From the NCBI GenBank assembly GCA_902782645.1, contig CACZNV010000129.1, positions 1 to 36,348 on the forward strand: a DNA stretch of 36,348 bases, read 5' to 3'. Shown piece by piece: positions 4,420-36,348 of this stretch (position 1 is its first letter; each line of letters begins with the position of its first letter). A model generated the notes under the pieces. That model was given only the letters and a program-made list of their open reading frames with translations. It was not told where the DNA came from and did no database searches. A program made the translations under genes and the position numbers. Source of the DNA: an uncultured Ruminococcus sp. (GTDB lineage Bacteria; Bacillota; Clostridia; UBA1212).

Positions 4420-6531
4420 ATGTTTCACATGGGTATCGTAAGCGGGTTGAAAAGCGAAATGGAGTCAAAGCCGGAGGGTGTTTTCTTTCCGGATCTTTTG
4501 AGGTGCCGCGGCTATGAGGCCTCCGGCGAAACCGCCAATGTCAACGCCCGTGCCGACGGTATTGCGGCGATTTTTGAGCTCTCCGAGCCCCACATCTACA
4601 AGAACGATCTCATTGCCGGCAGCATCAGAGACGCCTTCTTTAATGTAACTGCTGCAGACGAAGACGCCGCCAGGGTCTGGAAGGCAAAATACCCGGAGAG
4701 ATCCTTCCCCACAAACTTCGACCACTATGCGCCGGATTACCGGGCCGCAGTAAACGAAGGCATTCCGGGTCTCATTGCCCGCATTGAGGAGTCACTTGAT
4801 AAGCCAAAACGGAGCCCTCTCTCCGTGAGCCTGCTTCTGGCCATGAAAAGAACCCTCACGGCTCTTATGAACCGCCTTGAAAACTATGCGAAGAAGGCAA
4901 GGGCTCTCATGGGCACCGAAGGGTACAACGACGACAGACTCAGTTTTATTGCCTATAACTGCGACGCCCTTGCAAAAGGCGCCCCGGAGTCCTTTGCCCA
5001 GGGGCTGCAGCTTGTGTTTATGATTCACAACTGCTTCGTGCTTGAGGGCAGGTATGCCATGGCCCTCGGAAGAATCGATCAGTATCTCTACCCTCTTTAC
5101 AAAAAAGACACCGGTTCCGGTCTCTTTACGGACGCTTTCTGCGAGGAACTTCTCGCCAATGCGTTTCTCAAAATCTGCGAGTTCAGATACAGGGGCTGCG
5201 ACGATGTGGTCAATATTGCCATTGGCGGTGTGGATGAAAACGGTAAAAGCGCCGTCAACGAGCTCTCATACTGCGTGCTGCACGCTGTCAGGGATGTGAA
5301 CCTCCCCGGTCCGAACCTGTCCGCCCGCATTTTGCCGGACTGCCCCGACGTTTTTCTTGATGAGTGTCTGAAGGTCATAGGGACCGGTCTGGGCTACCCC
5401 GCTTTGATGAACGACGAGGTGAACATCGCCGCCCTTCTGAGAAAAGGCTACGACATAAAGGATGTCAGAGATTACTGCATGGTGGGGTGCATCGAGAATT
5501 TCATTGCCGGAAAGCAGCCGCCCTGGTCCGACGGTCGCTTCGATCCGATAAAGTATCTTGAGGCGCTGCTGCGGGACACTCCGCCTGACGAACTTGACGC
5601 CATAGGTTCCATGGACGACCTCATGGAGATATACGAGGAGAAGCTTGAGCTGGGCACCGCGGAATACATCGGCAATATGAGGCATTCAGCTTTCGTCAAA
5701 GACCCCGAAAACATGATGTCGCCCTTCTTGTCCTGCTTCTGCGAGGACTGCATAGGAAGAGGCCTTGACATTAACATGGGCGGCGCAAAATATCCATCGG
5801 CCCACGGCGCGGCACTCATGGGCATCGGAACCGTCAGCGATTCCTTGGCGGCAATCGAAAAGCTGGTCTTTGCGGACAAAAAAGTGAAGCTTTCGGAACT
5901 CGCCAATGCCCTCCGCAGCAACTTCGACGGTTATGAAGACTTAAGGGAGCTCTGCCTTGGGGCGCCGAAATACGGCAACAACGACAACTTTGTCGACAAA
6001 TACGCGGTTTGGTACACAAGCACCCTCTCCGACATGTTTGACTCCTACAGGACCCTTGACGGCGGCCCAGTCTACACCATAATGGCTTCAAACATTTCAA
6101 ACATCGCTGCGGGGAAAGAGCTTGGCGCCACCCCGGACGGAAGACTTGCCGGAAGGCCCCTCTCAGACGCAGCCTCCCCAACTTACGGCTGCGACACAAG
6201 AGGCGTCACATCCACGCTTCTTTCAGCCTCCAAACCGGATTACACCCGCTGCGCCTGCGGCACCGTCCTGAACCAGAAGTTTTCTCCCTCAGTTTTCAAA
6301 GACGGCAAGCGGGAGAAGCTGGCAAGCCTCATCCGTGTATATTTTTCCAGAGGCGGTCAGGAGATACAGATCAATTCCACCTCCCGCGAGGTTCTGAAGG
6401 ACGCCCGAATTCACCCGGAGAACTATCAGTCCCTGGTGGTTAGGGTTTCGGGGTTCTCCGCCCTTTACGTCACCCTTTCCGACGACGTGCAGGAGGATAT
6501 CCTTGCCCGCACCCAGCACGAAGACATATAA
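4420..6531 (+). CDS. Glycyl radical enzyme, dehydratase/lyase type, substrate unknown
   Basis: Glycyl radical enzymes hold a stable backbone radical and use it, through a thiyl radical, to break C-O, C-N, C-S or C-C bonds without oxygen. The C-terminal loop RVSGFSA places the radical on Gly678. The active-site motif is GCIE, with Cys357 and Glu359. Cys-x-Glu is typical of dehydratases and eliminases (glycerol/propanediol dehydratase, choline lyase, hydroxyproline dehydratase), whereas pyruvate formate-lyase has Cys-Cys. At 703 residues it is shorter than the usual 780-850, with a short N-terminal part. The motif is followed by GKQPPWSDGRFD, which I cannot assign to a characterised class. It is followed directly by its activase and a zinc dehydrogenase, suggesting a cytosolic pathway that dehydrates or cleaves a small polyol-like compound. 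Start: ATG after an AGGGGA. Confidence 0.9.
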   Translation: MFHMGIVSGLKSEMESKPEGVFFPDLLRCRGYEASGETANVNARADGIAAIFELSEPHIYKNDLIAGSIRDAFFNVTAADEDAARVWKAKYPERSFPTNFDHYAPDYRAAVNEGIPGLIARIEESLDKPKRSPLSVSLLLAMKRTLTALMNRLENYAKKARALMGTEGYNDDRLSFIAYNCDALAKGAPESFAQGLQLVFMIHNCFVLEGRYAMALGRIDQYLYPLYKKDTGSGLFTDAFCEELLANAFLKICEFRYRGCDDVVNIAIGGVDENGKSAVNELSYCVLHAVRDVNLPGPNLSARILPDCPDVFLDECLKVIGTGLGYPALMNDEVNIAALLRKGYDIKDVRDYCMVGCIENFIAGKQPPWSDGRFDPIKYLEALLRDTPPDELDAIGSMDDLMEIYEEKLELGTAEYIGNMRHSAFVKDPENMMSPFLSCFCEDCIGRGLDINMGGAKYPSAHGAALMGIGTVSDSLAAIEKLVFADKKVKLSELANALRSNFDGYEDLRELCLGAPKYGNNDNFVDKYAVWYTSTLSDMFDSYRTLDGGPVYTIMASNISNIAAGKELGATPDGRLAGRPLSDAASPTYGCDTRGVTSTLLSASKPDYTRCACGTVLNQKFSPSVFKDGKREKLASLIRVYFSRGGQEIQINSTSREVLKDARIHPENYQSLVVRVSGFSALYVTLSDDVQEDILARTQHEDI

Positions 6532-6553
6532 CCGGTATTGTTATTCTTAAGCG

Positions 6554-7324
6554 ATGAGCATTCTAAACGTCAGCCACATACAGCGCTTTTCCACCGGCGA
6601 CGGTCCGGGCATAAGGACAACTGTGTTCCTGAAGGGCTGCAACCTGCATTGCCCCTGGTGTCACAACCCGGAGAATATAAGGGCGGACCGCGAGGAGCTT
6701 TTTTACGAAAAAACAGGAAAAAGAATCCCCTACGGCACCATGCTGGCGCCGGCCTCCGCCGCGGCGGATGTGCTTGAAGACAAGGAATTTTACATAAGGA
6801 GCGGCGGAGGCGTCACCGTCAGCGGCGGCGAGCCCATGCTCCAGAGCGAAGGGGTTGCGGAGCTCGCCGCCATACTGCGCGAAAACGGCGTCAATGTGCT
6901 TATTGACACCGCAGGCTGCGTGCCCTGGAGCAGCTTTGAAGCGGTTCTGCCCTTCGTAAGCGACTTCTACTTTGACGTCAAGGCGGGCAGCCCTGCAAAG
7001 TACCGGGAGCTCATTGGCGGCGAGATGGCTCTTATAGAGAACAACCTGAGAAAGCTGGTTTTGGTTGGCGCCAATGTGACCGCCAGGATTCCCCTGATTC
7101 CGGGCGTCAACGACTCTGAGACGGAGCTGCGGCAGATAGGTGCTGTCATTTCAAGCGCCGGCGTGAGGCACGCAGATATTCTGCCTTTCCACAGGCTCGG
7201 GAGTGCAAAATACGAGGCCATGGGGCTTGATTACGGGTTTAAGAACACATTGCCCCCTTCAAGGGATGAAATTTTAAAGGCTGCCGGCATTCTCGGCGCA
7301 TATACCGATGTGGGCATTGAATAG
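6554..7324 (+). CDS. Glycyl radical enzyme activase (radical SAM)
   Basis: The activase uses S-adenosylmethionine and a [4Fe-4S] cluster to abstract hydrogen from the partner's Gly678. The cluster motif is GCNLHCPWC (CX3CX2C) near residues 28-36. The N-terminal IQRFSTGDGPGIRTTVFLKG is typical of the family, and SGGEPM is the SAM-contacting GGE motif. At 256 residues it has only a short stretch between the cluster motif and GGEP, so it lacks the extra ferredoxin-like domain with two more clusters found in most dehydratase activases. In this it resembles the compact pyruvate formate-lyase activase. It begins 22 bases after the enzyme gene, with only a weak ribosome site, so translational coupling is likely. 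Confidence 0.9.
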   Translation: MSILNVSHIQRFSTGDGPGIRTTVFLKGCNLHCPWCHNPENIRADREELFYEKTGKRIPYGTMLAPASAAADVLEDKEFYIRSGGGVTVSGGEPMLQSEGVAELAAILRENGVNVLIDTAGCVPWSSFEAVLPFVSDFYFDVKAGSPAKYRELIGGEMALIENNLRKLVLVGANVTARIPLIPGVNDSETELRQIGAVISSAGVRHADILPFHRLGSAKYEAMGLDYGFKNTLPPSRDEILKAAGILGAYTDVGIE

Positions 7325-7348
7325 TCTATAAAAAGGAGTTTACTTACA

Positions 7349-8443
7349 ATGAAAGCAAAAGCAGCCGTTTTTCTTGGCGCCAATAAACCGTTTGATGTCA
7401 GAGAATTTGAGGTTACCGGGACTCCGAAGGGCTACGGGCGGAGCGAGCTCATTGCCAGCGGCATCTGCGGCACCGACATACACATCTTCAAAGGAAAACT
7501 GGATATGCCCTTCCCTTCCATAATCGGGCACGAATTTGTGGGAAGGCTTGTCGACTGCGACCCTGAGGAGGCGGCGAAAAACGGTCTTGCCATTGGCGAT
7601 AATGTTATTGCGGACATTGCCGTGCCCTGCGGAAAATGTCTTCTCTGCCGGACCGGCGACGACGCCAATTGCGTGAACATGCAGGTCACAAACGGTGAGA
7701 GCATCGAAAAGCCGCCCTATCTCTACGGAGGCTATGCCGAGGTCAATTACACGCCCCTTTCAAACCTGATTAAGATTCCGGAGGGTGTGAACCCAAGAGC
7801 CGCGGCAATCTTTGGCTGCCCCGGGCCCACGGTAATTCACTCTGCAAGGCTGGCGGGACGGGCAGGCTTTGAAATCGGCAAAGACACGGTTGCTGTCGTC
7901 CAGGGGCTCGGCCCGGTTGGATGCTTCGCGGTGGCCTATCTTAAAGCCCTTGGCGTCAAAAAACTTTTTGCGATAGGAGCCAGGGAAAACCCCGCACGGG
8001 CAAAGCTTCTCAAGAAGCTGGGCGCCGACGAGGTGCTGAGCATCGAAAAGGACGGCGAAGAAAACATAACCGCAAAACTGCTTAAGGAAAACGGCGGCCT
8101 TGGCGTTGACCTCTGTCTTGAGGCATCCGGCGCCCCCTCCGCCATAACTCTGGGCATGAACGTGCTGAGAAACCGGGGCGTTTACCTCATCCCCGGTCAG
8201 TACAGCAACAGCGGAAGCATTTCAATTCCGCCGGAGATCATCACTTTCAAAGCCCTCAGGTTCATAGGCTCCTCCCAGTACTCTATCATCGACGTGCGGG
8301 ACTACCTTGAGTTCATGCGCACCCGCAAGGATCTTGAGGAGACAATCCTTTCCCTTGGAACTTTTTACACCGTTTCTGACGTCAATAAAGCCTTTTCCGA
8401 CGCCATGGCCGGCAAAAACGTCAAGACGCTTCTTGTCAAATGA
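7349..8443 (+). CDS. Zinc-binding medium-chain alcohol/polyol dehydrogenase
   Basis: This is a cytosolic NAD(P)-dependent dehydrogenase of the sorbitol/threonine dehydrogenase type, 364 residues. Catalytic zinc ligands are visible in GICGTD (Cys40) and IIGHEF (His61, Glu62). The structural zinc lobe is CGKCLLCRTGDDANC. The nucleotide fold has VQGLGPVG. A good AGGAG precedes the ATG. It is the third gene of the glycyl radical enzyme operon, 24 bases after the activase, so it probably oxidises the substrate precursor or reduces the aldehyde or ketone made by the lyase. The substrate cannot be read from the sequence. A stretch of about 55 bases separates it from the next gene; it includes a small palindrome (8479-8489) overlapping that gene's ribosome site. 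Confidence 0.88.
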   Translation: MKAKAAVFLGANKPFDVREFEVTGTPKGYGRSELIASGICGTDIHIFKGKLDMPFPSIIGHEFVGRLVDCDPEEAAKNGLAIGDNVIADIAVPCGKCLLCRTGDDANCVNMQVTNGESIEKPPYLYGGYAEVNYTPLSNLIKIPEGVNPRAAAIFGCPGPTVIHSARLAGRAGFEIGKDTVAVVQGLGPVGCFAVAYLKALGVKKLFAIGARENPARAKLLKKLGADEVLSIEKDGEENITAKLLKENGGLGVDLCLEASGAPSAITLGMNVLRNRGVYLIPGQYSNSGSISIPPEIITFKALRFIGSSQYSIIDVRDYLEFMRTRKDLEETILSLGTFYTVSDVNKAFSDAMAGKNVKTLLVK

Positions 8444-23289: not shown

Positions 23290-23493
23290 TTTTTGGCTCT
23301 TTACGCAAGTCGCGTAAAAATCAATAACGGATAACAATGAAAAAAGGTGTCTTGCGACGATTACTCGCGACTTGCTTTCCGCGAGCGGACCGCTCGAAGT
23401 ACCTTCGTACATCATCGGGTCCGCGCACGAAAAAATAGCTCAAAAATCACGTTTTTTTGCTCTTTACGCAAGTCGCGTAAAAATCACGTTTTT
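23290..23493. repeat. Structured repeat element with two 28-base direct repeats
   Basis: The same 28 bases, starting GCTCTTTACGCAAGTCGCG, occur at 23296-23323 and 23459-23486. Between them lie the inverse of the central ten bases (CGCGACTTGC at 23366-23375), a 7-bp palindrome CGAGCGG-a-CCGCTCG, a CGAAG-tac-CTTCG hairpin, and GGTCCGC pairing back to GCGGACC. AAAAATCACGTTTTTT occurs twice near the right end. The second copy supplies the stop codon (23484-23486, minus strand) of the clostripain gene. It could be a small mobile or dispersed element, or a structured RNA; no credible protein is encoded. Confidence 0.6.
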
Positions 23494-26339
23494 TGGTTCT
23501 TGCGGCGCCTGCCTAGGATTTCACAGAATGCAATTGCGGCAAGTGCGATGATAATACAGTAGTCGAAGCTGCCGCCGGTGGGCGGGTTGACCGTCTGCGG
23601 AACTATGGAGTATGAAACGGAACGCACCCCGTAGAAATCGCCAATGCCAATGATCACAACCTCTGCCTCGCCGATTTCAGAGCTTCCGTCGTAAAGGACT
23701 TTGAAATCCTTGCCCTCTTCAAGTATCTTGCCGTTGAATGTGGCAGTGATCTCAGGGCTTTGGGCTTCGCCGCTGTACACCGCATCGCCGATTTCAAACG
23801 CGACATCGCCAATCAGATACGCTCCGTCACCCTGCAGGGCCGCCTCGTCCGCTTCCTCGAAGAGCGAATTGGCGTTAAATCTGAATCCGTTAAAAGTCTT
23901 TATGATGTAAGTAGGGCTGCTGTCTGCAATCTCTTCTACCTCTTCAATTCTCTTCCAACCGAGAGTAATACCCCAGCCTTCCTTTTCGATGTCTATCGGA
24001 CTGAACTGGGATATCGGGACAAGGGCATCGTAGTTGTCGCAATCCGTCACGTGTGCACCGGCCGCATATCTGGCACCTGTAAAGCGGTTATCGTCCATTG
24101 GATAGAAGGCTCTCTCGTCAATTGAATTAAATGTGAGCCCATCCACCTTCCAGCTGCCGTCGACAAAAGATATCGAAAGGAATGCATCGCTGAATTCACC
24201 GTTTCCCCAGTAAAGCTGGATGGGAACAAGGGCCTTTTCTTTGGACCGGTCCTTGTAATTGATTTGGGCGGGATGCTCGTTTCCCTCCGCATCTGTCAGC
24301 ACAAAAGTGTATGTTTCTACGCCGGGCATAATCCACACGGAAGTGTCGGATGAATACACTCTGCGTAAAAGATCGGCGCTGTTTTCGTAGTAGTTTTCGT
24401 AATACCGGTTGATGTCGAGGCTGCCCTCATACTCCGGTGTGTTATAGCTGATTCCGTTTGGGAAAGCCTTCTCGATTGGCTTGTCATCGTAAAAGAGATG
24501 CAAAATCAGATCAAATTCATCGCTCCGGTAATTGGTGGGCTCGATTTTGGCGGATGAGGTTACGCTCATCAATGACTGGGCGGTCGTGCCGCTGATTGTC
24601 ACTTGGTAGAAACCGGTGTCGCCTGTGCCGATTATTCTCTTAACACTGACTTTTTTCCCGGAAATCGCCTCTTTTGCCTGCTGATCAACTATGAGCGAAA
24701 AATAATCCGTAATATCCTCCGCCGAAGAGAAGTCTTCGTCATAAGTTTCTATCGTTTCATACGCCTTGTCTATTGCGGTTTTGAATGAGTTGTACTGATT
24801 AATGTACTCATCAACATCCGCCCAGGTAACTGCGTCCGTTGTTTTCGGTGCAAGCTTGTCCACGGTGCGTCCGATGCGCAAGATAACCGAATAATATGTG
24901 ACTGCAAGGGCCCTCTCCGCCAAAAACTCCCGGATTACCGGATCATCAACGACACCGTTCATTCTCGAGATTTCGGAGAGATAGCAGTCCATGTTGTCCA
25001 GATTGCCGTCGCCGAACACAATGTTGAATCCTGTGGGCTCCACTGTGATGTAACCGTTTTCGTTGGGATTAATAAACTCTCCGTCAAGGCCACGAATGTA
25101 ATACCCGGACATTATCCTGCGTGTGGAGTCAGAATTGGCGGTGTAAATAACATCGTCACCGCTTCCGTCGCAATCGTTAAGGATTGAAAGTATCCTGAGC
25201 GCAACCTCTGTATAGGCGTTTGTCAAGCCGTTAATTTCCGAGGCTGAGGCATTGTCGAGTTCGGACTGCAAAGCGCTCAAGCCGCCAACGATATTTCCAA
25301 AGTCATAAAGAGAGTATCCCCCTCCGTTATATTCAAAGGCGGTTAGGAGCGAATTAATTTCGTCGTAGTAGTTGTATTTTCCGTTCACAGCGCCGGGATT
25401 CTTTGCCTCGCTGATCAATAATTTGTCAAGGGCGGTAATCTCCGGCATCAGACGTTCAGTAAAATTTTTTGTATTGATTACGGAAAGAGTCGCTTCGGAA
25501 TGCTGCTCCTCGCTGTAAAATTTTACAAGACCGTCAACTATGTGCCTGCCCAGTTCAAATCCGTCCATTCCGGGGTTCTCCTTGAGAGCGTTCAGCCAGG
25601 ATGTGTATTCCTGCCCGTTTCCCGGTTCAGACTCCGCCGAAGCCACCAGATAATCGGTAAAAGGAGCAAGCACCGCAGCGATTTCAACGGAAGACATTAA
25701 ACAGGCGTCAAAATTTATGATTTCAAATTTTATGCCGTCTTTTATAAGCTTTGTGTCGCCAAGGAGGGAGACTGTTGCCGTCATTTCGATAATGCTTGGA
25801 TCTATAAACCTTTCATCGCAGCCGAACCCGAGCGAGAACGCGCCGCCGTGGTCCCATAAAATCAGGTCGTATTTGTCTGCAGGATAGTTTTCATAACAGT
25901 AATCAATGAAAGCGGTAAGGGTTTCCGGCTTACTCATGTTGGCTTTTTCAAAACCCTCTATGCCCGTAGCTTCAATGAGCTTCATTATACCGTGGTCTTC
26001 GTTTTCCCGTTTTCCTTCAATCTTCCAAATCTGGTCGTATTCCGGGTTGACCTCTTCGGCCCCTGAGAGATACTCTGCCTCTGTCTTCCACTCAGTTGTT
26101 CCGCCGGTCATCACTATGAAATCTATATTTTCATCGTAATCCGCTTTCATCGCCTGAACAAGATTCCATGTTCCGTCACCCCACATGCGCTCCAGATTAG
26201 ATCCGACAAGGTAAAGCATTATAGTGCGTTTTTGAGGTTCCTGAGAAGCTTCAGCCGGCTGTGGTGAGACTGCGATTAAGCAGAAAACAACAGCAGCAGC
26301 CGTGAGGAATGCAATCAGCCTCTTTTTCATTTTCTCCAT
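23484..26339 (-). CDS. Secreted clostripain-family (C11) cysteine protease with sorting tail
   Basis: Clostripain-type peptidases cleave mainly after Arg. The 951 residues have a signal peptide ending near AEAS, then the C11 domain: MLYLVGSNLE, ILWDHGGAFS (catalytic His164) and NFDACLMS (catalytic Cys213). A long region to about 830 has no motif I know, followed by a small beta domain of the MBG/filamin-like type (EGKDFKVLYDG, AEVVIIGIGDFYG). The end is NPPTGG (from 918), a hydrophobic stretch and RRRKNQKT, which looks like a sortase signal. AGGAGG lies 8 bases before the ATG. It begins 55 bases after the phosphatase gene in the peptide-export operon, so it may mature, degrade or respond to the exported peptide. 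Its stop codon lies in the structured repeat. Confidence 0.87.
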   Translation of the reverse strand: MEKMKKRLIAFLTAAAVVFCLIAVSPQPAEASQEPQKRTIMLYLVGSNLERMWGDGTWNLVQAMKADYDENIDFIVMTGGTTEWKTEAEYLSGAEEVNPEYDQIWKIEGKRENEDHGIMKLIEATGIEGFEKANMSKPETLTAFIDYCYENYPADKYDLILWDHGGAFSLGFGCDERFIDPSIIEMTATVSLLGDTKLIKDGIKFEIINFDACLMSSVEIAAVLAPFTDYLVASAESEPGNGQEYTSWLNALKENPGMDGFELGRHIVDGLVKFYSEEQHSEATLSVINTKNFTERLMPEITALDKLLISEAKNPGAVNGKYNYYDEINSLLTAFEYNGGGYSLYDFGNIVGGLSALQSELDNASASEINGLTNAYTEVALRILSILNDCDGSGDDVIYTANSDSTRRIMSGYYIRGLDGEFINPNENGYITVEPTGFNIVFGDGNLDNMDCYLSEISRMNGVVDDPVIREFLAERALAVTYYSVILRIGRTVDKLAPKTTDAVTWADVDEYINQYNSFKTAIDKAYETIETYDEDFSSAEDITDYFSLIVDQQAKEAISGKKVSVKRIIGTGDTGFYQVTISGTTAQSLMSVTSSAKIEPTNYRSDEFDLILHLFYDDKPIEKAFPNGISYNTPEYEGSLDINRYYENYYENSADLLRRVYSSDTSVWIMPGVETYTFVLTDAEGNEHPAQINYKDRSKEKALVPIQLYWGNGEFSDAFLSISFVDGSWKVDGLTFNSIDERAFYPMDDNRFTGARYAAGAHVTDCDNYDALVPISQFSPIDIEKEGWGITLGWKRIEEVEEIADSSPTYIIKTFNGFRFNANSLFEEADEAALQGDGAYLIGDVAFEIGDAVYSGEAQSPEITATFNGKILEEGKDFKVLYDGSSEIGEAEVVIIGIGDFYGVRSVSYSIVPQTVNPPTGGSFDYCIIIALAAIAFCEILGRRRKNQKT

Positions 26340-26394: not shown

Positions 26395-28503
26395 TCAAAC
26401 CAGATTCTTGACGATTGTCAGCACATTCCGGCCGTCTTTGTACTCATACTTTATATCGTCCATGCTCTTCTTGACCATGTAAATTCCCAAACCGCCAATG
26501 GGCCTGTCTTCCGCCGCGAGGGTCAAATCCGGGTCCGGCTTTGCAAGCGGGTCATAGGGAGTGCCGCTGTCGCTGAAAGTAATCGATATGCGGCGGGGGT
26601 CGGACGCTGAGCCTTCAATCCGGATCTCGGCAGAGCCCTTTTCCGGATGATAGGCGTAATGGGCAATATTGACGAATATCTCTTCCACAGCCACGTTGAT
26701 TTTCATTTTTGTTTTCTCAGGGCAGTTCATGGCGTCAAGTTCGCGGTCCACGAAAGAAAGCACATGTTCAAGGTTTTCCACCTCAGCGTCAAGCTTTATT
26801 TCCTTGACGACCTGCGCCCCGTTGTAGCAGAAGCCCATCATGGTTATGTCGTCAAACTGTGGAGCGTCGCCCACAAAGCCGTCAATCGCTTCTCTCACAG
26901 AACGGAGAATTCCCTCCGGAGAGCCGTCCTCGCTGCCGTTCAGGGCGGCAAGCATACGCTCGGCTCCGAACAGCTCGTTGTTTGCGTTTGTGGCCTCCGG
27001 AACGCCGTCCGTGTACACAAACAGCCTGTCGCCGGGGTTGAGTTCGAAGGTGTGCTCTTTAAAGCGGATGCCGTTCATTGTGGCAACAGCCGGGCTGTGG
27101 CGGTACACCACAAGTTCAAACTGTCCGTCTGCGCGGCAGATGACGGGGTGCTCGTGGCCTGCATTGGCGGCAACACCCTTGCCGGTTGAGAGTTCGATGA
27201 CGGCAAGCCACACCGTGACGAAAAGTTCCGCCTCGTTTCCTTCGCAGAGCTGCTCGTTGACGTTCTTCAGTATCTCAGCGGGGCTCTCGCCAAGCTGGGC
27301 CCGGTTTTTGATAAGGGTCTTCGCGATGACCATGAACAGAGCCGCGGGAACGCCCTTGCCGGATACGTCCGCCATTACAAGTGCGATGTGGTCGTCGTCA
27401 ACAAGGAAGAAGTCGTAGAAATCGCCGCCAACTTCCTTGGCAGGGTTCATCGATGCGTAGAGATCGAATTCTTTTCTGTCCGGGAAAGCGGGGAATATTC
27501 GGGGCAGCATATCCGCCTGGATCTGCGTGGCAACATTCAGCTCCGCGCCGATGCGCTCTTTTTCCGCGGTGACTGCGGTCAAGTGGGTGATGTAGTTGTT
27601 GATATCCCGCTCCATCTGCTTCACGGAGTCGCACAGCGTCTCCACTTCGTCGCCTGTGCGTATCTTCAGCTTGGAGATTGCGGAGTCTGTTTTCTGTTCG
27701 TTCGAACGGTCCTGTACGAAGGAGCGGGCCGCGTCGGTGAGCATGTTAATGGGTTTGATAAGCACCTTGGCGATGCCGAAAAGAATGCCCGCCGTAATAA
27801 TGACAGCTGCAATACCGATGAAGATCAGAACGTTGCGCAGATAATCGGCCCTGTCCTGCATTATTTCGTCCATCGATATGTCAACGCCGACAAGAGCCAC
27901 CGGATTTCCGGCTTTGTCCCTCACCGGCTCCATGGAAGTACAGAGCCATCCGTATGAGTCATTGGTGATAAAGGCCGGGATGCCCTCTTCAGGGTTCTTG
28001 GTTTCCTTTGTGGGACCTGAGACCTTGTGGGTGGTGCCCAGCTGGCACTGCTCGGATGACCTGTCGGCGTCCAGTATGTAGGTGCACCAGTCGCCGTCCA
28101 GCTTCTGGACGTAGAGGTAGGTTATGTCGTTGCTGTCCTTTATGTCAAAGAGGATGCTCAGCATGCGGTAGTAGTCGGCGTCTTTCAGGGCGTTTGCCTT
28201 GGCGTCGTACTCTATACGGTACTCAGTGTTCTCTTTATCACTGTACTTGTCTTCGTCGTACTCTCCAATCTGCTTCACAGCATTGTAATAGTAAAGCAGC
28301 GCATCCGGATCGAGCTGGGAGGCTGCTGTTTTTGCGAGATTGGAGGTCAGTTTTTTGTAGTGTGAATCCATCGTGTCGCTGTAAACGCGGTAGCTGATGG
28401 TCACCGCGATAGCCGACAGAACCAGGGCTGCGAGAATGATTACCACAACGGTTTTGAATCTGAGGGAAACCACCCGGAACTTCTTTTTCTTCATTTGAGC
28501 CAT
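26395..28503 (-). CDS. Sensor PP2C (SpoIIE/RsbU-type) phosphatase fused to an RsbW-like ATPase
   Basis: This 702-residue membrane sensor probably dephosphorylates the STAS protein of the operon. Order: membrane span (17-37), extracellular Cache-like sensor (38-221), second span (222-245), HAMP (about 245-305), PP2C domain with GGDFYD (Asp361) and ADVSGKG (Asp379) as metal ligands plus DDITMM, then an anti-sigma-type ATPase (about 575-702). In the ATPase VEEIFVN keeps Glu608 and the Mg-binding Asn612, FSDSG (645-647 DSG) is the G1 box and GGLGI the G2 box, so it looks active. One chain thus carries both opposing activities of a partner switch. The ATG at 28503-28501 was chosen over a 72-codon extension because conserved sequence starts there and AGGA lies 11 bases upstream. 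Confidence 0.88.
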   Translation of the reverse strand: MAQMKKKKFRVVSLRFKTVVVIILAALVLSAIAVTISYRVYSDTMDSHYKKLTSNLAKTAASQLDPDALLYYYNAVKQIGEYDEDKYSDKENTEYRIEYDAKANALKDADYYRMLSILFDIKDSNDITYLYVQKLDGDWCTYILDADRSSEQCQLGTTHKVSGPTKETKNPEEGIPAFITNDSYGWLCTSMEPVRDKAGNPVALVGVDISMDEIMQDRADYLRNVLIFIGIAAVIITAGILFGIAKVLIKPINMLTDAARSFVQDRSNEQKTDSAISKLKIRTGDEVETLCDSVKQMERDINNYITHLTAVTAEKERIGAELNVATQIQADMLPRIFPAFPDRKEFDLYASMNPAKEVGGDFYDFFLVDDDHIALVMADVSGKGVPAALFMVIAKTLIKNRAQLGESPAEILKNVNEQLCEGNEAELFVTVWLAVIELSTGKGVAANAGHEHPVICRADGQFELVVYRHSPAVATMNGIRFKEHTFELNPGDRLFVYTDGVPEATNANNELFGAERMLAALNGSEDGSPEGILRSVREAIDGFVGDAPQFDDITMMGFCYNGAQVVKEIKLDAEVENLEHVLSFVDRELDAMNCPEKTKMKINVAVEEIFVNIAHYAYHPEKGSAEIRIEGSASDPRRISITFSDSGTPYDPLAKPDPDLTLAAEDRPIGGLGIYMVKKSMDDIKYEYKDGRNVLTIVKNLV

Positions 28504-28519: not shown

Positions 28520-29350
28520 TCATATGAGAAGTAGATTGGCGTATGTGCGCCGGAGAGGCGCGTTGAATACAAGAGAGGACACATCGGAAGAGCCTTTGCA
28601 GGAAGCATCTTCGGGAAGATATGCCAAAATGCGGGAGACGCTGAATAAGCCGCAGAGAGCTGATGAGATTCTCCGGAGCTGTTCCGGATTAAGATCAGTC
28701 TCAATGATGCGAAGAACACCTTCAGAGGGGCAGGCCATCAGAAAACGGGTGCCGCCGTCCAGTGTGAAAGCAACCGTTTTACCTCCGCAAAAACCGTTTT
28801 CTTTCACGCACCAGCGCAGGTGGCTGTCGGACCATTTCACGTAGGGGCGCCCATTGAACGCCCTGTTGCGGAGCCGGTTGTATTCTTCCGCAGAAATAGG
28901 TGAAAAATATATATTTTCCTCTCTGTTTTTTCCCGGGGCCGCCTCAAACAATTTGAAGTGGCTGTCCTCGGTAAAGCCCAGGTAGGAATAGTATTCTATA
29001 AGCGCAGGCACGGGCTTCAGGAACAGTCCGTAACCCTTCTCCTCCGCAGTATGTGCAGCGGAAAGGAGCAGGGAACGCATCAAGCCCTTGTCCCGGTATT
29101 CGGGGAGAGTTCCCACCGCATAGACATACTTTACCGGGTCCTCCCGCAAGCCTTCGGCGAACGCCGCGTCCATCAGGTTTACCATGCTGACAGGCTTCCC
29201 GTCCACCGTGTAGACGAGGACGCCGATCCGGCCGAAGTTTTCCCTGTAGAAAAGGCGTATGTACTCCCCCGGGTCGGGGAAGCAGGACTGCCAGACAGCG
29301 CAGAGATCCGGAATATCATGTTCGTTTGCCATTCGGATATCGGATTTCAA
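28520..29350 (-). CDS. GNAT N-acetyltransferase, enhanced-survival-like
   Basis: The 276 residues have a GNAT domain: DIRMANEHDIPDLCAVW, a long substrate part, VYAVGTLPEYRDKGLMRSLL with the acetyl-CoA loop, and FLKPVPALIEYYSYLGF. A C-terminal domain of about 120 residues places it with larger Eis-like transferases rather than single-domain ones. The start is probably TTG (29350-29348), 6 bases after the MATE stop, with GGAGGTG lying in the last codons of that gene; the ATG at codon 7 is the alternative. The tight fit means its translation is coupled to the transporter. It could acetylate the exported peptide or a toxic product, but no substrate can be read. Confidence 0.8.
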   Translation of the reverse strand: MKSDIRMANEHDIPDLCAVWQSCFPDPGEYIRLFYRENFGRIGVLVYTVDGKPVSMVNLMDAAFAEGLREDPVKYVYAVGTLPEYRDKGLMRSLLLSAAHTAEEKGYGLFLKPVPALIEYYSYLGFTEDSHFKLFEAAPGKNREENIYFSPISAEEYNRLRNRAFNGRPYVKWSDSHLRWCVKENGFCGGKTVAFTLDGGTRFLMACPSEGVLRIIETDLNPEQLRRISSALCGLFSVSRILAYLPEDASCKGSSDVSSLVFNAPLRRTYANLLLI

Positions 29351-29356
29351 AACTGT

Positions 29357-31096
29357 CTACACCTCCACGGTAAGGGTGTTGAAACCGGCGTAGCGGCGGT
29401 AGAAAAACTGCTTGGATTTCGCTTTCACCATCTGGATGCCCAGGGACGCCAGATTCTCGTCGTCGTCATAGTCCCGGCCCGTCTTCATGGCGAAAGGATT
29501 GAAGTCAACCGCGTTGTCCCGTATGTGAAGCACCACGGAGCCTTCTTTTTCAAAGCAGACCGTGAGCTGTATGTATTCGTTGCCTTCTTTGCGGAATGCA
29601 TTGGCGATAATCGCCTGGCAGACCTCCTCCACGCAAAGGGAGACATAGTATATCTGTTTCGGCGTCGCACCGTTCTCCTCGCAGAAAGCTTCCGTCTTGC
29701 CCAGTAAATCCGAAATATCCGTAGAGTTCGCGTCCAGGAGATAGGAGAACACCACATCCGACACCGGCTGCTTTCTGAGACGGCAGACAGGTATCCACAC
29801 GGCAAGGGCACCCAGCTCCGCACCGAGGAAAACGAACCAGAACCATTTCAGACCAAAGAAGGACAGTATCAGTGCAAAAGCGGTAAAGCACACAAAGTTC
29901 CTCATCTGATTGATGAGAAACACGATTTTCTCACCGCCAACGGCCTGGTAATAGTAGCTCCAGACTATGCTCAGTCCGGCAGGCACCACCGACAGGCAGA
30001 ACAGGCGCACCGCAAAAGCTCCGGCCTTCACCGCCGCACCTGTGAGTCCGAACATAGAGCACACATAGGGTGCAAAGACCGCAAACAGCCCGGAGACCGC
30101 GCCGCCCGCCAATACGCCGATGATGACCGTAAAAAACATAACCCGCTTCACTGCATCTTTGTTGTGTTCCGCAAAGAAAGTGCCGCACAAAGGCTGGGCG
30201 GTATCGCCGAGAGCGGAATAAATCGCCAATGCAAAATATGACACATTCTGAACGACGTTGAACTGTGCCAGAGCCCCGTCACCGCCAATGCGCAGCAGAA
30301 TGTTGTTTGCAATCAAGAGTGCCGCAAACTGACCGATATAGCCAAAGGAAGATGACATTCCGGTTTTCAGCACCGAAAAAATAATTTTTATGTTGGGTTT
30401 GACGAACTTAAAGCGGAGAATTGCCCATTTTCTCGTGAAATGGAGGGAGAAGATGGCGATTCCCACCGCCTTGCCGAGTACCGTCGCAATGATTGCGCCG
30501 CGGACGTCCATTTTGAACACAAGCACAAGCAGCGCGCTGGCGGCGACGTCAGTCAGGTACCCCGTGACGTATCCTATGCTCGCCAGTTTTTCATTGTCAT
30601 CGCAGCGCACGCAGTAGTAGAGCAGGAAGTACATGAACGTGAGCGGCGCTCCTAAAAACATAATCTGCAAATAGTCTTTTGCATATTTCCACAGCTCGCC
30701 CTCCGGGGAACCTGCCCCCAGCAGACGAAGAATATATGGCATTAAAATCAGGCCCAGCGCCCCGATTAAAACGCTGACGGCAACAGCGAACATCAGCATC
30801 TGGGAGTAGATCTCAATTGCTTTTTTTGCCTTGCCCTTGCCGAGAGTCCTGGTGTAGTGCACGGAGGTGCCCACGGCAATTCCGATGTCCAGCACGTTGT
30901 AGAGCATATATACAGGTGCCACCAGGGACATGATTGCAAGCCCTGTCTTTCCGATCCTGATGCCCACAAAAAGAGCGTCCGCAATATCTCCCAGGGCCAG
31001 TCCCAGCGCAGAAAAAAGCGTGGGCCAGAAAAGCCGGCGGAACATGCGGTCGGTAAACGATTTGTTTTTCAGGACACTTGCCCCATGCTCGCTCAT
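29357..31096 (-). CDS. MATE-family transporter fused to a degenerate RsbW-like ATPase
   Basis: The first 435 residues are a polytopic MATE exporter (twelve likely spans; LFWPTLFSALGLALGDIADA at the start). After a linker, residues about 455-579 form a GHKL ATPase of the anti-sigma type. Its N-box reads VEEVCQA: Glu491 is kept but the Mg-binding Asn is Ala495. The G1 box is DNA (527-529) instead of D-x-G, and the G2 box is SLGI. It may therefore bind the STAS partner without being an active kinase. The start overlaps the DUF2156 gene by 4 bases (ATGA). Exporter plus switch domain in one chain suggests that the STAS protein controls transport directly. Confidence 0.85.
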   Translation of the reverse strand: MSEHGASVLKNKSFTDRMFRRLFWPTLFSALGLALGDIADALFVGIRIGKTGLAIMSLVAPVYMLYNVLDIGIAVGTSVHYTRTLGKGKAKKAIEIYSQMLMFAVAVSVLIGALGLILMPYILRLLGAGSPEGELWKYAKDYLQIMFLGAPLTFMYFLLYYCVRCDDNEKLASIGYVTGYLTDVAASALLVLVFKMDVRGAIIATVLGKAVGIAIFSLHFTRKWAILRFKFVKPNIKIIFSVLKTGMSSSFGYIGQFAALLIANNILLRIGGDGALAQFNVVQNVSYFALAIYSALGDTAQPLCGTFFAEHNKDAVKRVMFFTVIIGVLAGGAVSGLFAVFAPYVCSMFGLTGAAVKAGAFAVRLFCLSVVPAGLSIVWSYYYQAVGGEKIVFLINQMRNFVCFTAFALILSFFGLKWFWFVFLGAELGALAVWIPVCRLRKQPVSDVVFSYLLDANSTDISDLLGKTEAFCEENGATPKQIYYVSLCVEEVCQAIIANAFRKEGNEYIQLTVCFEKEGSVVLHIRDNAVDFNPFAMKTGRDYDDDENLASLGIQMVKAKSKQFFYRRYAGFNTLTVEV

Positions 31097-31980
31097 TTAA
31101 GAGTTCCTTTCCAGATTCGCACCAGTTCTTTCGGCCGGCGCAGCAGTTTGTGCTGTCTGAGACCCGCAAGTCCCATGTCCTCTTCCGAATCCACGGTTTT
31201 AACTTCTTCCGGGAGTTCGGAATAGAGAACCCATTTGATATAGCAGTCGCATTGTTTGTCTATCACCTTGCAGAAGCTGATGTCAAATACCTCCGGGGTG
31301 ATAAAAATGCCTGCGGCATATGCCGCGTCCTCCCCGTCCGCCTGATACAGTCTGCCCCATAAACGGAGCTCCGAGAAGTGTTTCAGGGCCTCTTCCGCAA
31401 CAGCCGTATCCGCCAAGTCTCCCGTCATGCGGTCCTCAGCCCATCTTCTGTTGATTACAATCGCCCTTTCAACATTGCCCGGAGTCAGGGGTTCCGAGGA
31501 CCATTCCTTCGCAGAATCCCGTCCGACACGTATCCTGTGGCGGAGGTCTTTAAATTCTTTTCCTTCAAGAGCAAGCTGCCTGTCCTTATCGTATAGGTAC
31601 GGAAAATCGTCCCTGCATTCTTCGAAAACGAATCTGTCCGGATAGGTCTTCTCCAGGAAAAGCCTGTCGCCGTCGCTCACGTAAGAAAATACGGGAGATT
31701 CATATTGAAGGAGTGTGTCTAAAAGCTTCTTTTTCCCTGTTTCAGAGCCGCAGGGGAACATATATGCATTATCTCCCCTGGCTCCGTATTTAATCAGGAA
31801 AGCGTCATCCGTGAGGCAGATACTGTACTTTTCATGCTTCTGCCACGCAAAGAGAGAGGCAAAGGCATAAACGTACAGCGTGCTTCCGGATGCGGCGCGG
31901 ATGGTCTCCACCCTTGCCATCTGGTCCATTGTGATTTTTGTGAACACGAGTGATGACGTGTTGCAATTGTCGGATGTCAA
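31093..31980 (-). CDS. DUF2156 / phosphatidylglycerol lysyltransferase C-terminal-like protein
   Basis: The 295-residue soluble protein resembles the cytosolic domain of MprF-type aminoacyl-tRNA:lipid transferases, a double-GNAT fold. Supporting stretches are FTKITMDQMARV, LFAWQKHEKYSICLTDDAFL, KDLRHRIRVGRD and the closing MGLAGLRQHKLLRRPKELVRIW, typical of the family's end. There are no membrane spans, so it is the soluble type, whose function is mostly unknown; transfer of an amino acid to a lipid or peptide is possible. The start is TTG (31980-31978) with a strong GGAGG 8 bases upstream. It overlaps the MATE gene by 4 bases and follows the STAS gene by 56 bases. Confidence 0.8.
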   Translation of the reverse strand: MTSDNCNTSSLVFTKITMDQMARVETIRAASGSTLYVYAFASLFAWQKHEKYSICLTDDAFLIKYGARGDNAYMFPCGSETGKKKLLDTLLQYESPVFSYVSDGDRLFLEKTYPDRFVFEECRDDFPYLYDKDRQLALEGKEFKDLRHRIRVGRDSAKEWSSEPLTPGNVERAIVINRRWAEDRMTGDLADTAVAEEALKHFSELRLWGRLYQADGEDAAYAAGIFITPEVFDISFCKVIDKQCDCYIKWVLYSELPEEVKTVDSEEDMGLAGLRQHKLLRRPKELVRIWKGTLK

Positions 31981-32036: not shown

Positions 32037-32333
32037 TCACTCGATCTCAAGAAAATCAACGAAGCCTGTCACTTCGAATATCTCCATTATCTCCGGTTTC
32101 ACGTTTCTTATGACCATGCGGCCCTGTTTGTTCATCACTTTCTGAGCGGAAAGCAGGACCCGCAGCCCTGCGGAGGAAACGTAATCCAGCGCGGTGAAGT
32201 CAAAAATCAGCGTGGTGATGCCGTTTACCGATGTCCGCAGCTCGCCTTCAAGCATTGGCGATGTCATTGTGTCCAGCCGCCCCTCCAGGGCTACGGTCAG
32301 TGTGTTTTCTTCCTGTTTTTTTATGATATTCAT
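32037..32333 (-). CDS. STAS-domain anti-anti-sigma factor (RsbV/SpoIIAA-like)
   Basis: The 98-residue protein is a single STAS domain. The phospho-acceptor loop LDYVSSAGLR puts the switch serine at Ser54; VALEGRLDTMTSPMLEGEL and FDFTALD are the usual strands around it. In known systems the unphosphorylated form binds an RsbW-like ATPase and frees its target; a PP2C enzyme such as the one downstream restores it. The ATG at 32333-32331 has GGAGG 5 bases before it; the frame runs four codons further upstream without a better site. No sigma factor lies in the window, so the target may be the ATPase domains of the transporter or the phosphatase themselves. An octamer copy at 32253 spells Ser-Pro-Met here. 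Confidence 0.88.
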   Translation of the reverse strand: MNIIKKQEENTLTVALEGRLDTMTSPMLEGELRTSVNGITTLIFDFTALDYVSSAGLRVLLSAQKVMNKQGRMVIRNVKPEIMEIFEVTGFVDFLEIE

Positions 32334-32373: not shown

Positions 32374-32655
32374 TCAAAGACGTCTTTTAACATCTTTCTG
32401 GCTGTAAGGGGTGGAATCGGAGGCGTCGGTTATAACCTGGGGTCTTGAGTAAGCGGTGCCCGGCCTATTCATTCCCGGTAAAATAAAGCCGCCGGATGCT
32501 TCGTCAAGGAGCTCGTCGGGCAAAGCAACGCCCATTTTGCTCAAAAGGTCAAGCACCTCTCCGCTGTTTTTGCAGGCGGACACTTTTGCCTTTTGGTCCT
32601 TCGACAATCCGGCAATTACACCGTTAAGTATCTCATTAAATTTCTTTTCGTCCAT
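32374..32655 (-). CDS. Peptide precursor with Nif11-like double-glycine leader
   Basis: The 93-residue product starts MDEKKFNEIL. An amphipathic leader with KVSACKNSGEVLDLLSKMGV and ALPDELLDEASGG ends in Gly55-Gly56, as in Nif11/nitrile-hydratase-type leaders cleaved by the C39 peptidase of an export ABC protein. The 37-residue core that follows begins FILPGMNRPG and ends DVKRRL; it has no Cys, four Pro, four Arg and several Ser/Thr. So it is not a classic lanthipeptide or sactipeptide. The ATG at 32655-32653 has a GGAAG about 10 bases upstream; the longer frame into the ABC gene is a shadow. It sits directly after the two NHLM exporter genes, which supports its role as their cargo. Confidence 0.8.
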   Translation of the reverse strand: MDEKKFNEILNGVIAGLSKDQKAKVSACKNSGEVLDLLSKMGVALPDELLDEASGGFILPGMNRPGTAYSRPQVITDASDSTPYSQKDVKRRL

Positions 32656-32687: not shown

Positions 32688-34877
32688 TTACTCGGAAATA
32701 TCCAATTGCTGACGGGCCACAAGGTCCGCAAAGAATCCTTTTTTTGCCATCAGGCTGTCGTAGGTTCCGTCCTCGACGATATGGCCCCTGTCCAGAACTA
32801 TGATGCGGTCGCATTGGCGGATTGTGGAAAGCCTGTGGGCTATGATGATGCGGGTGCATTTCATCCGGTCAAGTGCCTCCGAGACCTGTTTCTGAGTCAG
32901 ATTGTCCAGTGCGCTGGTGGCCTCGTCGAACATCAATATCTTAGGTTTCGGCGCAATGGCCCGGGCAATCAAAAGGCGCTGCCGCTGCCCGCCGGATATG
33001 CCGCCCTGTCCTTCGGAGATCAAGGTGTGCATTCCCATCGGCATAGCGCGTATGTCGTCTGCGATGCCCGCCAGTTCCGCAGCCTCCCAGGCGTCATCGA
33101 GAGTGAGCCACGGTGCTGATATGGTTATGTTCGAAAAAATGTCCCCGGTGAACATTTTCCCGTTCTGCATCACCGCTCCGATTCTGCGGCGCAGCGATTT
33201 CAGATCTATCCGGTTAAGGTCCCGTCCGTCATAATAGACGGCGCCCTTTTGGGGCGTCTCGAAGCCCAGCATCAGGCGCATAAGCGTGGATTTCCCGCAG
33301 CCGGTCTTTCCCACAATGGCAACGTACTGCCCCGGCCTTATCTTAAGCGTGAGGTCGTCAAGCACCGGAGGCATGCTTTCAGTATAGCGGAAAGTCACAT
33401 TGTTCAGTTCTATGCCGCCGGAAAGACGGGTCAGAACCAGTTTATCTTCCGCAACTTCAGGTTCTGTCTCCAGTATAGGCTTTGCCATCTCCATTGCCGG
33501 CTTGATCAGCGCAGCGCCGGAAGCGATGCCCGCCAATGCCATGAAAGCCGCATTCATCATTCCGTAGGCGGAGTTGAAAGCGTAATACTCGGCAACGCTA
33601 ACCCCGGTCTTCACTGCTGAAGCGTATATGAACATGGTGCCGATCACCGAAACCGCCAATGTTATCACAGGTGCAACCTTCAAATACATCGGAGGGTTAT
33701 ACAGTAGTTTCGCCTCATCGGCATACAGTTTTCCCCAGCGGGCGAAGGCCCGTTTTTCCGCGCCGGAGAGCTTAATCTTCTGGATTCCTGAAATCAGTTG
33801 GTAGCTGAGGCCGCTCTCTTTATTGGCGAGTTCCATCTGCCTGCGGCTGATTTTCATCTGCCCTAATGTCTGCACAAGGGTGACAAGGAGCGTCAGCAGC
33901 GTTATGATCAGAGCCGGGGCCACCAGGGCCGGCGCATAAATGAATATCTGTGTTATGTAGACCAGCGAAAACAGGCTCGTAAGCCCCGTGGACAGCGCCA
34001 TGCTCACAATCTCGCTGCAGAGGCCGTTGATGTACTGCGCACGGTTTGAGAGCTCGCCGGAGCTGTACTTTTTGAAGAAATCAGCCGGCAGGCTGAGGAT
34101 GCGCATCATGGTGGCGGCCTCCACAGACTGGTTCAGTTTCATTCCTATACGCGCCACAAGGAGCGCTTTGATTGACCCGAACAGCAAGGCGGCTATTGTG
34201 GACGAAACCAGGAATACTCCCACGCCAAGCAGCGCCCTCATGCTCCCGTCGGCAAGCACATCCGAGAACAGCAGCTTGCTGAGCCACGGCGTCAGCATTC
34301 CGATTGCAGTCACCGCAACCATTGCCGCCAAAAGAAGTACCACGTCAGGCAGTGTGATCTGCTGCACAATATACTTCACCAGGCCCCCAAGGGTCATCTT
34401 GGCGAGAGGGAAAGGCTTGTAGAAGGCCACTGCCTCTCTTTCGATCAGGGACTGTGTTTTCCGGTTCAGGCGCACCGTTTTTCCGCTCTTTCGGTCGAAA
34501 AAGCGATACCCGTTCAGTCCCGAGGGTATAAGGGCCACCACGCTGCCGTCGTCTTTTCTCGTTCCCAGCATCGCGCCTGCCGCGTCGTGGTACCAGCCCG
34601 GATCCAAGTGAACGGTTCTGCGCATTATCCCGTAAGGGCGGAGCAGAAACTCCAGCACCTCGTTCATGTCTTTTATACTCTCCGGAATATCCCGGGACTT
34701 CACCCGGTAGTACTTCAGAATCTCGCCAATGGCATCCGCCGCAATCTGACGGTCGTCATTCAGGGCTTCGTTCATGCGCTGCCCCATTACGGCGCCTGCC
34801 ATCTGCCTGAAGGAATCTTCGAATACGAACTCATCCGCTTCTTTTCTTGCGCGGATCTGTTCATCAAACCAACCCAT
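32688..34877 (-). CDS. NHLM-type bacteriocin export ABC transporter, permease/ATPase subunit
   Basis: The 729 residues have an N-terminal extension of about 160 residues without peptidase motifs (typical for the second subunit of NHLM exporters), six membrane spans (about 170-450) and an ATPase domain: Walker A GKTGCGKST, signature ISGGQRQR, Walker B ILMFDEATSALD and the His loop IIIAHRLSTI. It should form a heterodimer with the peptidase-bearing subunit encoded 12 bases upstream and export peptides with double-glycine leaders. The ATG has AAGGAGGGAT closely before it. Octamer copies at 32812, 33531, 33654 and 34724. Confidence 0.9.
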   Translation of the reverse strand: MGWFDEQIRARKEADEFVFEDSFRQMAGAVMGQRMNEALNDDRQIAADAIGEILKYYRVKSRDIPESIKDMNEVLEFLLRPYGIMRRTVHLDPGWYHDAAGAMLGTRKDDGSVVALIPSGLNGYRFFDRKSGKTVRLNRKTQSLIEREAVAFYKPFPLAKMTLGGLVKYIVQQITLPDVVLLLAAMVAVTAIGMLTPWLSKLLFSDVLADGSMRALLGVGVFLVSSTIAALLFGSIKALLVARIGMKLNQSVEAATMMRILSLPADFFKKYSSGELSNRAQYINGLCSEIVSMALSTGLTSLFSLVYITQIFIYAPALVAPALIITLLTLLVTLVQTLGQMKISRRQMELANKESGLSYQLISGIQKIKLSGAEKRAFARWGKLYADEAKLLYNPPMYLKVAPVITLAVSVIGTMFIYASAVKTGVSVAEYYAFNSAYGMMNAAFMALAGIASGAALIKPAMEMAKPILETEPEVAEDKLVLTRLSGGIELNNVTFRYTESMPPVLDDLTLKIRPGQYVAIVGKTGCGKSTLMRLMLGFETPQKGAVYYDGRDLNRIDLKSLRRRIGAVMQNGKMFTGDIFSNITISAPWLTLDDAWEAAELAGIADDIRAMPMGMHTLISEGQGGISGGQRQRLLIARAIAPKPKILMFDEATSALDNLTQKQVSEALDRMKCTRIIIAHRLSTIRQCDRIIVLDRGHIVEDGTYDSLMAKKGFFADLVARQQLDISE

Positions 34878-34889
34878 AAGATCCCTCCT

Positions 34890-36348
34890 TTACTCCGAAG
34901 TCACAAGCGCTTTGTACACGCCGTCTTTTGCCATCAATTCTTCGTGGGTGCCCCGCTCGACAACCTTGCCCTTGTCCAGCACTATGATTTCGTCGCAGTC
35001 ACGGATGGTGGAAAGCCTGTGGGCAATGACCACGCAGGATATTCCCCTGTCCTTTATGGAGCGCACAACGTCATATTCGGTCTTTGCGTCAAGAGCGCTG
35101 GTGGCCTCGTCCAGAATGATCATGGTGGGGTCCTGGGCCAGCACCCGGGCAATCTCCATGCGCTGCCTCTGGCCGCCGGAGAAATCCTTGCCGCCTTCCG
35201 TAATCTTGTACTGATATCCGCCCTCACGCTGCATGATGTCCTCGTGAATCTGGGCGTCCCTTGCAGCCATGATGATTTCGAAATCCTCAATGGAGTTGTC
35301 CCACATCCGGAGATTATTGCCGATAGTGTCCTCAAACAATATGATTTCCTGGTCCACCACCGCCACGGAGCCCGTAAAAATGCTCCGGTCGATTTGGGAG
35401 ATGGGCTTGCCGTCAAAAAGTATTTCGCCGCTCCAGGGCTGATAGAGCCCGGAAATAAGCTTGGAAAGCGTGCTCTTACCGCAGCCGGATGTGCCAACGA
35501 AAGCCACCCGCTGTCCCTGCTTCAGCTCCAGGCTGAAATCTTCGATCAGCGGCGGTGCGAGACGTGAATAGCCGAAGGTCACATTCTTCATCACCAGGCT
35601 GCCGCTCAGTTTGTCGTAGCTTGCGTTATTGTCCCCGGCCTGCGCCGCATCTGCGGCAAACATCTCGTCCTCCGGGTACTCCATAACGTCCTCGATACGC
35701 TCCATGCTCGTGCGCATCTCCTGCATCTGCTGTCCCGACTCAATGAGATTCTGTGCCGGCGTCATAAACGAGCCCAGGAAGCCCTGGAACGCCATGACCA
35801 TACCTACGGTGAACTGACCGCGCATAACCAGCCAGACGCCAAGGATAAGCACCGCATTGTTAAGCACCCCTGCCACGACGGAGGGGACCACGCCAAGGTA
35901 TTGATTGATTTTCTGGAACCGTACGTTCTGAGTGTTGACGGATGCCTGATAGCCGGACCATTTTTCAAAAAAACCGTTTTCCGCGCCGCTGGCCTTGATG
36001 GTTTCAATCATCTCGATTCCCGAGACGGTTGCAGAGGCAAGTTTTCCACTGTCGCGCATCATGACGCGGGTTATATTGATGCGCTTCGCAGAAATGAAGC
36101 GGGACATAAATATCTGGATAAGGACGGAAGCGATTCCCACAAGGGCCAATATCCACGAATAGCGCAGCATGACCACCAGATAAAAAATCATCATAAAGCT
36201 GTTGATGGCAAGCGGAGCCAGGGTATTCACGATGTCGCCGGCAACGGTTTCATTGGCGGCTTTGCGCATCTGAATATCCCCCGCCATGCGCTGGGAAAAG
36301 AATTCCATAGGCAGGCGGAGCACTTTCCACATGTAGCTGCTGTTTCCC
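34890..36348 (-). CDS. NHLM-type bacteriocin export ABC transporter, peptidase subunit (C-terminal 485 residues)
   Basis: The frame is open to the window edge, so the N-terminal part, expected to hold the C39 peptidase domain and first membrane spans, lies outside. What is seen begins within the transmembrane domain (SSYMWKVLRLPMEFFSQRMAGDI is characteristic of these exporters) and continues to a full ATPase: Walker A GTSGCGKST, signature FSGGQRQRMEIARVLAQDP, Walker B MIILDEATSALD and AHRLSTI. It is the likely first visible gene of the nine-gene operon and would cleave the precursor after Gly-Gly during export. The presence of the peptidase domain is inferred from family, not seen. Confidence 0.87.
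   Translation of the reverse strand, partial: GNSSYMWKVLRLPMEFFSQRMAGDIQMRKAANETVAGDIVNTLAPLAINSFMMIFYLVVMLRYSWILALVGIASVLIQIFMSRFISAKRINITRVMMRDSGKLASATVSGIEMIETIKASGAENGFFEKWSGYQASVNTQNVRFQKINQYLGVVPSVVAGVLNNAVLILGVWLVMRGQFTVGMVMAFQGFLGSFMTPAQNLIESGQQMQEMRTSMERIEDVMEYPEDEMFAADAAQAGDNNASYDKLSGSLVMKNVTFGYSRLAPPLIEDFSLELKQGQRVAFVGTSGCGKSTLSKLISGLYQPWSGEILFDGKPISQIDRSIFTGSVAVVDQEIILFEDTIGNNLRMWDNSIEDFEIIMAARDAQIHEDIMQREGGYQYKITEGGKDFSGGQRQRMEIARVLAQDPTMIILDEATSALDAKTEYDVVRSIKDRGISCVVIAHRLSTIRDCDEIIVLDKGKVVERGTHEELMAKDGVYKALVTSE

Follow-up and report, generated by a model that had tools for sequence, protein, structure and literature searches.

A MATE exporter encoded by an uncultured Ruminococcus sp. 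carries at its C-terminus a degenerate RsbW/SpoIIAB-type HATPase domain. With rather better than even confidence, we read this domain as an RsbW/SpoIIAB-derived pseudokinase that would dock a STAS protein and so put the transporter under partner switching. RsbW/SpoIIAB-type kinases normally control gene expression, and partner switching is known mainly for sigma factor control and in a few cases for second-messenger enzymes. The DNA analysed, called the window here, is the whole stretch of 36,348 nucleotides (GCA_902782645.1, contig CACZNV010000129.1, positions 1-36,348, forward strand). The argument starts from the fusion, the motif loss and its conservation, the intact partners and their clustering, the fold and the selection on the domain, all of them read from sequence. 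The exporter gene has the following features.

29357..31096, (-) strand: MATE exporter fused to a degenerate RsbW/SpoIIAB-type HATPase, 579 aa (ORF and Pfam; DinF-type by its PDB relatives BH2163 and PfMATE)
29363..29752, (-) strand: C-terminal pseudo-HATPase domain, aa 449-578 (Pfam HATPase_c_2; AF2 and PDB fold matches)
29612..29614, (-) strand: N-box Ala495 replacing Asn, codon GCG (alignment)
29510..29512, (-) strand: G1 box Ala529 replacing Gly, DNA for DxG (alignment)

The MATE part occupies about aa 1-430. Pfam MatE matches it in two stretches (best aa 25-182, E 9e-28), the two PDB relatives match aa 17-429, and the AF2 model of aa 2-440 is all-helical, as in the 12-TM MATE fold. The C-terminal domain is matched by HATPase_c_2 at aa 459-577 with 35 bits, against a cut-off of 27.4. 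Around the exporter lie the following genes and sites.

23484..26339, (-) strand: clostripain-family (C11) peptidase, downstream end of the cluster (Pfam PF03415; also beside relatives L144 and L162)
26395..28503, (-) strand: membrane sensor PP2C (SpoIIE) phosphatase with a C-terminal intact HATPase (Pfam SpoIIE; HATPase_c_2, 85 bits; all motifs intact)
26413..26781, (-) strand: live HATPase domain of the phosphatase, with N-box Asn, DSG, lid Arg and GGLG (alignments)
28520..29350, (-) strand: GNAT acetyltransferase between the MATE fusion and the phosphatase (Pfam Acetyltransf_9; conserved in near relatives)
31093..31980, (-) strand: LPG_synthase_C/DUF2156 aminoacyltransferase-like protein (Pfam PF09924)
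32037..32333, (-) strand: stand-alone STAS protein, anti-anti-sigma type (Pfam STAS, TIGR00377)
codon 32172-32174, (-) strand: phosphorylatable Ser of the STAS protein, in VSSAGLR (sequence motif)
32374..32655, (-) strand: putative exported peptide with a DELLDEASGG double-Gly leader (homologous peptides in L162, L163 and L205)
32688..34877, (-) strand: NHLP-type peptide exporter, ABC2 subunit (TIGR03797, 728.8 bits, above cut-off)
34890..36332, (-) strand: NHLP-type peptide exporter, ABC1 subunit, truncated at the contig end (TIGR03796, 640 bits, model positions 234-709)

The PP2C-HATPase protein is likely a bifunctional phosphatase/kinase. The stop codon of the LPG_synthase_C/DUF2156 gene overlaps the MATE start (ATGA), and the two genes are translationally coupled; the MATE exporter could move an aminoacylated product. 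Like the window operon, the relatives L163 and L205 have both NHLP ABC subunits alongside a double-Gly peptide; the product that the exporter serves may thus be a peptide or a lipid, the link being one of association only. At its end the clostripain-family peptidase has NPPTG followed by a hydrophobic stretch and then RRRK, the look of a surface protease anchored to the wall. At 4420-8443 a glycyl radical enzyme, its activase and a zinc-type alcohol dehydrogenase stand in a row, an unrelated cluster that was read by eye only.

The N-box and G1 residues bind Mg-ATP in RsbW and SpoIIAB. The N-box reads VEEIFVN in the phosphatase copy and VEEVCQA in the exporter, where A495 takes the place of Asn; the G1 box reads DSG in the former and DNA in the latter, with A529 at the Gly position. 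Both substitutions had been proposed by eye in an earlier note on this DNA, and the alignment agrees with them, as it does with the claim that the phosphatase-fused copy is intact (N-box Asn, DSG, lid Arg and GGLG all present). Two further losses were found that the earlier note did not have: the lid Arg, which is invariant in live HATPase copies, and the two leading glycines of G2 (GGLG to ASLG). Retained in the exporter domain are E491, the catalytic Glu of the N-box, D527, the adenine-contacting Asp of G1, and the final Gly of G2. A SpoIIAB sequence served as motif anchor in the alignments; the motif register was independently confirmed by alignment to actual PDB sequences of RsbW and SpoIIAB.

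Searches of the class, the family, the phylum and named genomes yielded 104 distinct MATE-HATPase fusions from Bacillota. We scored four positions in each domain: N-box Asn, G1 Asp, G1 Gly and G2 GxG. All four were intact in 0/104 fusions, and in 30/30 PP2C-fused, 6/6 STAS-fused and 35/39 stand-alone HATPases of the same neighbourhoods; of the four stand-alone domains that fall short, at least two are pieces of transporter fusions (L141, beside a MATE fragment, and L130, an SDF fusion). Nearly all MATE-HATPase fusions have lost the G2/lid motif, and the G1 Gly is usually lost too. The clade of the window has 58 members (SH-aLRT 100), none of which has the N-box Asn, and in the window and its 15 near relatives the residue is Ala in 16/16. 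This rules out a lone mutation, and a shifted Asn is ruled out as well, 78/104 fusions having no Asn at E+3 to E+5. Loss of the N-box Asn, which the earlier note had raised for the clade, thus holds for all 58 members but not for MATE-ATPase fusions at large: 25/104 keep it, a share that is not a natural frequency, since the named set, although gathered with patterns outside the N-box, was seeded with the window clade. Universal loss is thereby ruled out. The N-box state changes at least five times across the fusion tree, a number that is approximate because the tree was a quick one with several long branches flagged. A narrow taxon-specific oddity is ruled out by fusions present across the class and the phylum; an order-level search found no second clear MATE-HATPase fusion in the window's own order. 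In L204 (7989-9667, the same locus as L030) and L203 (8007-9748) the MATE fusion appears as two ORFs with an apparent frameshift, either a sequencing error or a split gene. The main proposal of the earlier note, a kinase-dead domain on a transporter beside a live copy, is strongly supported: the loss is clade-wide and occurs in other lineages too, the domain is under selection, and the contrast of live and dead copies recurs across loci.

The partners recur with the fusion. Any STAS, PP2C or live HATPase lying no more than 6 kb away counted as a partner. All 62 fusions of the named set have one, and 167/170 of these partners are co-directional with the fusion. In the independent set partners were found for 36/48 fusions (32 with PP2C, 25 with STAS, 24 with live HATPase), and 88/90 are co-directional. 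The other 12/48 have no partner within 6 kb; in their genomes STAS was found in 11/11 searched and HATPase_c_2 above cut-off in 10/11, these hits being partly the fusions themselves. The phosphorylatable residue of STAS is Ser in 65/66 and Thr in 1/66, and the metal-binding Asp residues of PP2C are mostly retained. The gene order in the window clade is STAS, LPG_synthase_C, MATE-HATPase, (GNAT), and PP2C with or without HATPase. The LPG_synthase_C/DUF2156 protein accompanies mainly the Asn-less clade. The window operon has the full set: its STAS protein carries the phosphorylatable Ser, and a PP2C phosphatase and a live HATPase kinase are both encoded.

With the N-box Glu and the G1 Asp retained, nucleotide binding without catalysis is possible. 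The domain might then bind adenine nucleotide without Mg and report the energy state to the exporter, STAS being secondary. The Glu is invariant (104/104, despite the decay of the nucleotide site), and the G1 Asp is kept in 90/104 fusions (87%), along with the last G2 Gly in the window domain. Against this, the Mg-binding Asn, the G1 Gly, the lid Arg and the first G2 glycines are lost together, several clades have C, N or S in place of the Asp, and the clustering with STAS and PP2C would be left unexplained. We regard such a nucleotide sensor as unlikely, although it survives best among the alternatives.

The AF2 model of the exporter HATPase domain has a pLDDT of 83.6; in the full-length model, confidence is good over the MATE part and lower over the HATPase domain. 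Foldseek gave SpoIIAB:SpoIIAA (1tid/1til) and RsbW:RsbV (6m37) as the best PDB folds for the domain model, with TM 0.61-0.71 by query. In profile searches of PDB sequences, the broader alignment A1 matched RsbW and SpoIIAB; the close-clade domain alignment gave no real match and the window domain alone gave only noise. SpoIIAB and RsbW are dimers, and a domain of this fold might simply dimerise the exporter, or recruit STAS and the phosphatase to the membrane, with no gating of transport. Motif loss would be irrelevant for a scaffold of this kind. The conserved STAS Ser and the intact kinase/phosphatase pair favour a switch over a static scaffold, and we hold this reading to be marginally less likely still than the nucleotide sensor.

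The least degenerate MATE fusion is that of L124 (genome G860, 5714-7429), which keeps the Asn, the Asp, the lid Arg and GGLG. Its locus has STAS and PP2C, with no separate HATPase within 10 kb. This one case fits a course in which a live kinase was fused to the exporter and lost its activity after a separate kinase took over, L124 being a possible ancestral form. It also lends something to the view that the exporter domain is an active or slow kinase for STAS with unusual active-site residues, as do the conserved Glu and Asp and the fusions that still have the N-box Asn. That view is improbable: the operon already has a live kinase, and the window clade has lost the Arg, Gly and Asn found without exception in live copies.

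Strong purifying selection acts on the pseudo-HATPase domain. For the window and its 15 near relatives the median dN/dS is 0.079 in the HATPase domain (about 0.08) and 0.10 in the MATE part, values that are rough because synonymous sites are near saturation. Decay of the domain is ruled out by this ratio, and a functionless relic, for which motif loss alone speaks, deserves hardly any credence given also the absence of stops, the fixation of the loss in a 58-member clade and new residues conserved in the wider window clade (EExC, FNPF and YRR..GFN).

We return to a STAS-docking pseudokinase. The inventory of the window's genome rests on family searches of a 96%-complete draft, in which no sigma-B/F/G factor scored above cut-off. 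HATPase_c_2 was above cut-off in the phosphatase and exporter genes only, and the operon STAS is the only stand-alone STAS that was found. With no other RsbW-like domain or SigBFG match above cut-off, the exporter is the visible output candidate, if an anti-sigma-type output exists; the genome being a draft, another output could be missing. The other STAS of this genome is N-terminal to an acyl-CoA ligase-like enzyme (L222, 5436-7295, contig C98) and keeps its Ser motif (ITSAGL); this fusion is a possible second STAS player or STAS-controlled enzyme.

The conserved STAS/PP2C/kinase cluster, the lack of another output in these searches and the AF2 fold make it a well-motivated proposal that STAS docking gates the exporter. 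The membrane PP2C-HATPase would sense an outside signal and set the phosphorylation of one STAS Ser, its HATPase adding the phosphate and its PP2C removing it. Unphosphorylated STAS would bind the pseudokinase domain of the exporter in the manner of SpoIIAA with SpoIIAB, docking through a conserved face around the N-box Glu, and this binding would switch the MATE exporter on or off. In such a cycle the exporter would thus stand in place of a classical sigma factor or its anti-sigma factor.

Degenerate domains of this type were also found on other transporters, in assignments that rest on profiles built in this analysis, as Pfam hardly detects the ABC- and SDF-fused domains. They are C-terminal on GlnQ-type ABC ATPases (L129-L131, L032, L226-L228, L230, L232, L239, L247 and L248), part of longer ABC fusions (L203, with substrate-binding protein, permease and ATPase, and L234) and N-terminal on SDF symporters (L246, L231, L235 and L249). 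The N-box Asn is kept in 2/9 tabulated ABC forms (L232 and L234) and in no SDF form. Whether degenerate RsbW-type pseudokinase domains on at least three unrelated transporter classes (MATE, GlnQ-type ABC and SDF) let a phospho-switched STAS gate transport generally in Bacillota is, in our judgement, an evenly balanced question.

If the proposal is true, transporters would be a direct output of partner switching, read by a dead kinase copy, and export would follow an extracellular signal within seconds, with no need for transcription. A large group of gut-bacterial MATE proteins whose sole annotation is efflux pump would gain a function, and regulatory pseudokinases would have a bacterial parallel. 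In the open-access literature we found no description of transporter-fused RsbW-type pseudokinases or of partner switching on MATE or other transporters, and a rewired gene switch of the kind suggested here, which would turn transporters of gut Clostridia on and off directly, appears to be previously undescribed.

Like the SpoIIAB-SpoIIAA-SpoIIE and RsbW-RsbV-RsbU/P systems of Bacillus, the window operon combines a kinase/anti-sigma fold of the HATPase_c_2 type, a STAS protein with a phosphorylatable Ser and a PP2C. It differs from the SpoIIAB/RsbW systems in that its putative STAS-binding domain is a pseudokinase on a transporter and that no sigma-B/F/G factor scores above cut-off in the window's genome. 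Partner switching has been described with sigma factors and with diguanylate cyclases (PMC6482189, PMC9239204). SiaABCD and HsbRAD of Pseudomonas share with the window a PP2C, a HATPase kinase, a STAS and a non-sigma output (PMC9239204, PMC6482189); their output is a diguanylate cyclase, whereas that proposed here is a membrane transporter reached by way of a degenerate kinase-domain copy. In MlaFB a STAS protein is bound to an ABC ATPase (PMC7367683), which resembles the direct control of a transporter by STAS that we suggest for the window. MlaB, however, binds the ABC ATPase itself, and no HATPase domain, PP2C or kinase is established there (PMC7367683). SulP/SLC26 transporters likewise carry a fused domain of the partner-switching type, but theirs is the STAS half, while the window exporter is fused to the anti-sigma/kinase half (PMC8256260). 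The DinF-type MATE proteins BH2163 and PfMATE correspond to the MATE part of the exporter; their match ends near aa 430, and the cytoplasmic C-terminal domain of the window exporter is extra.
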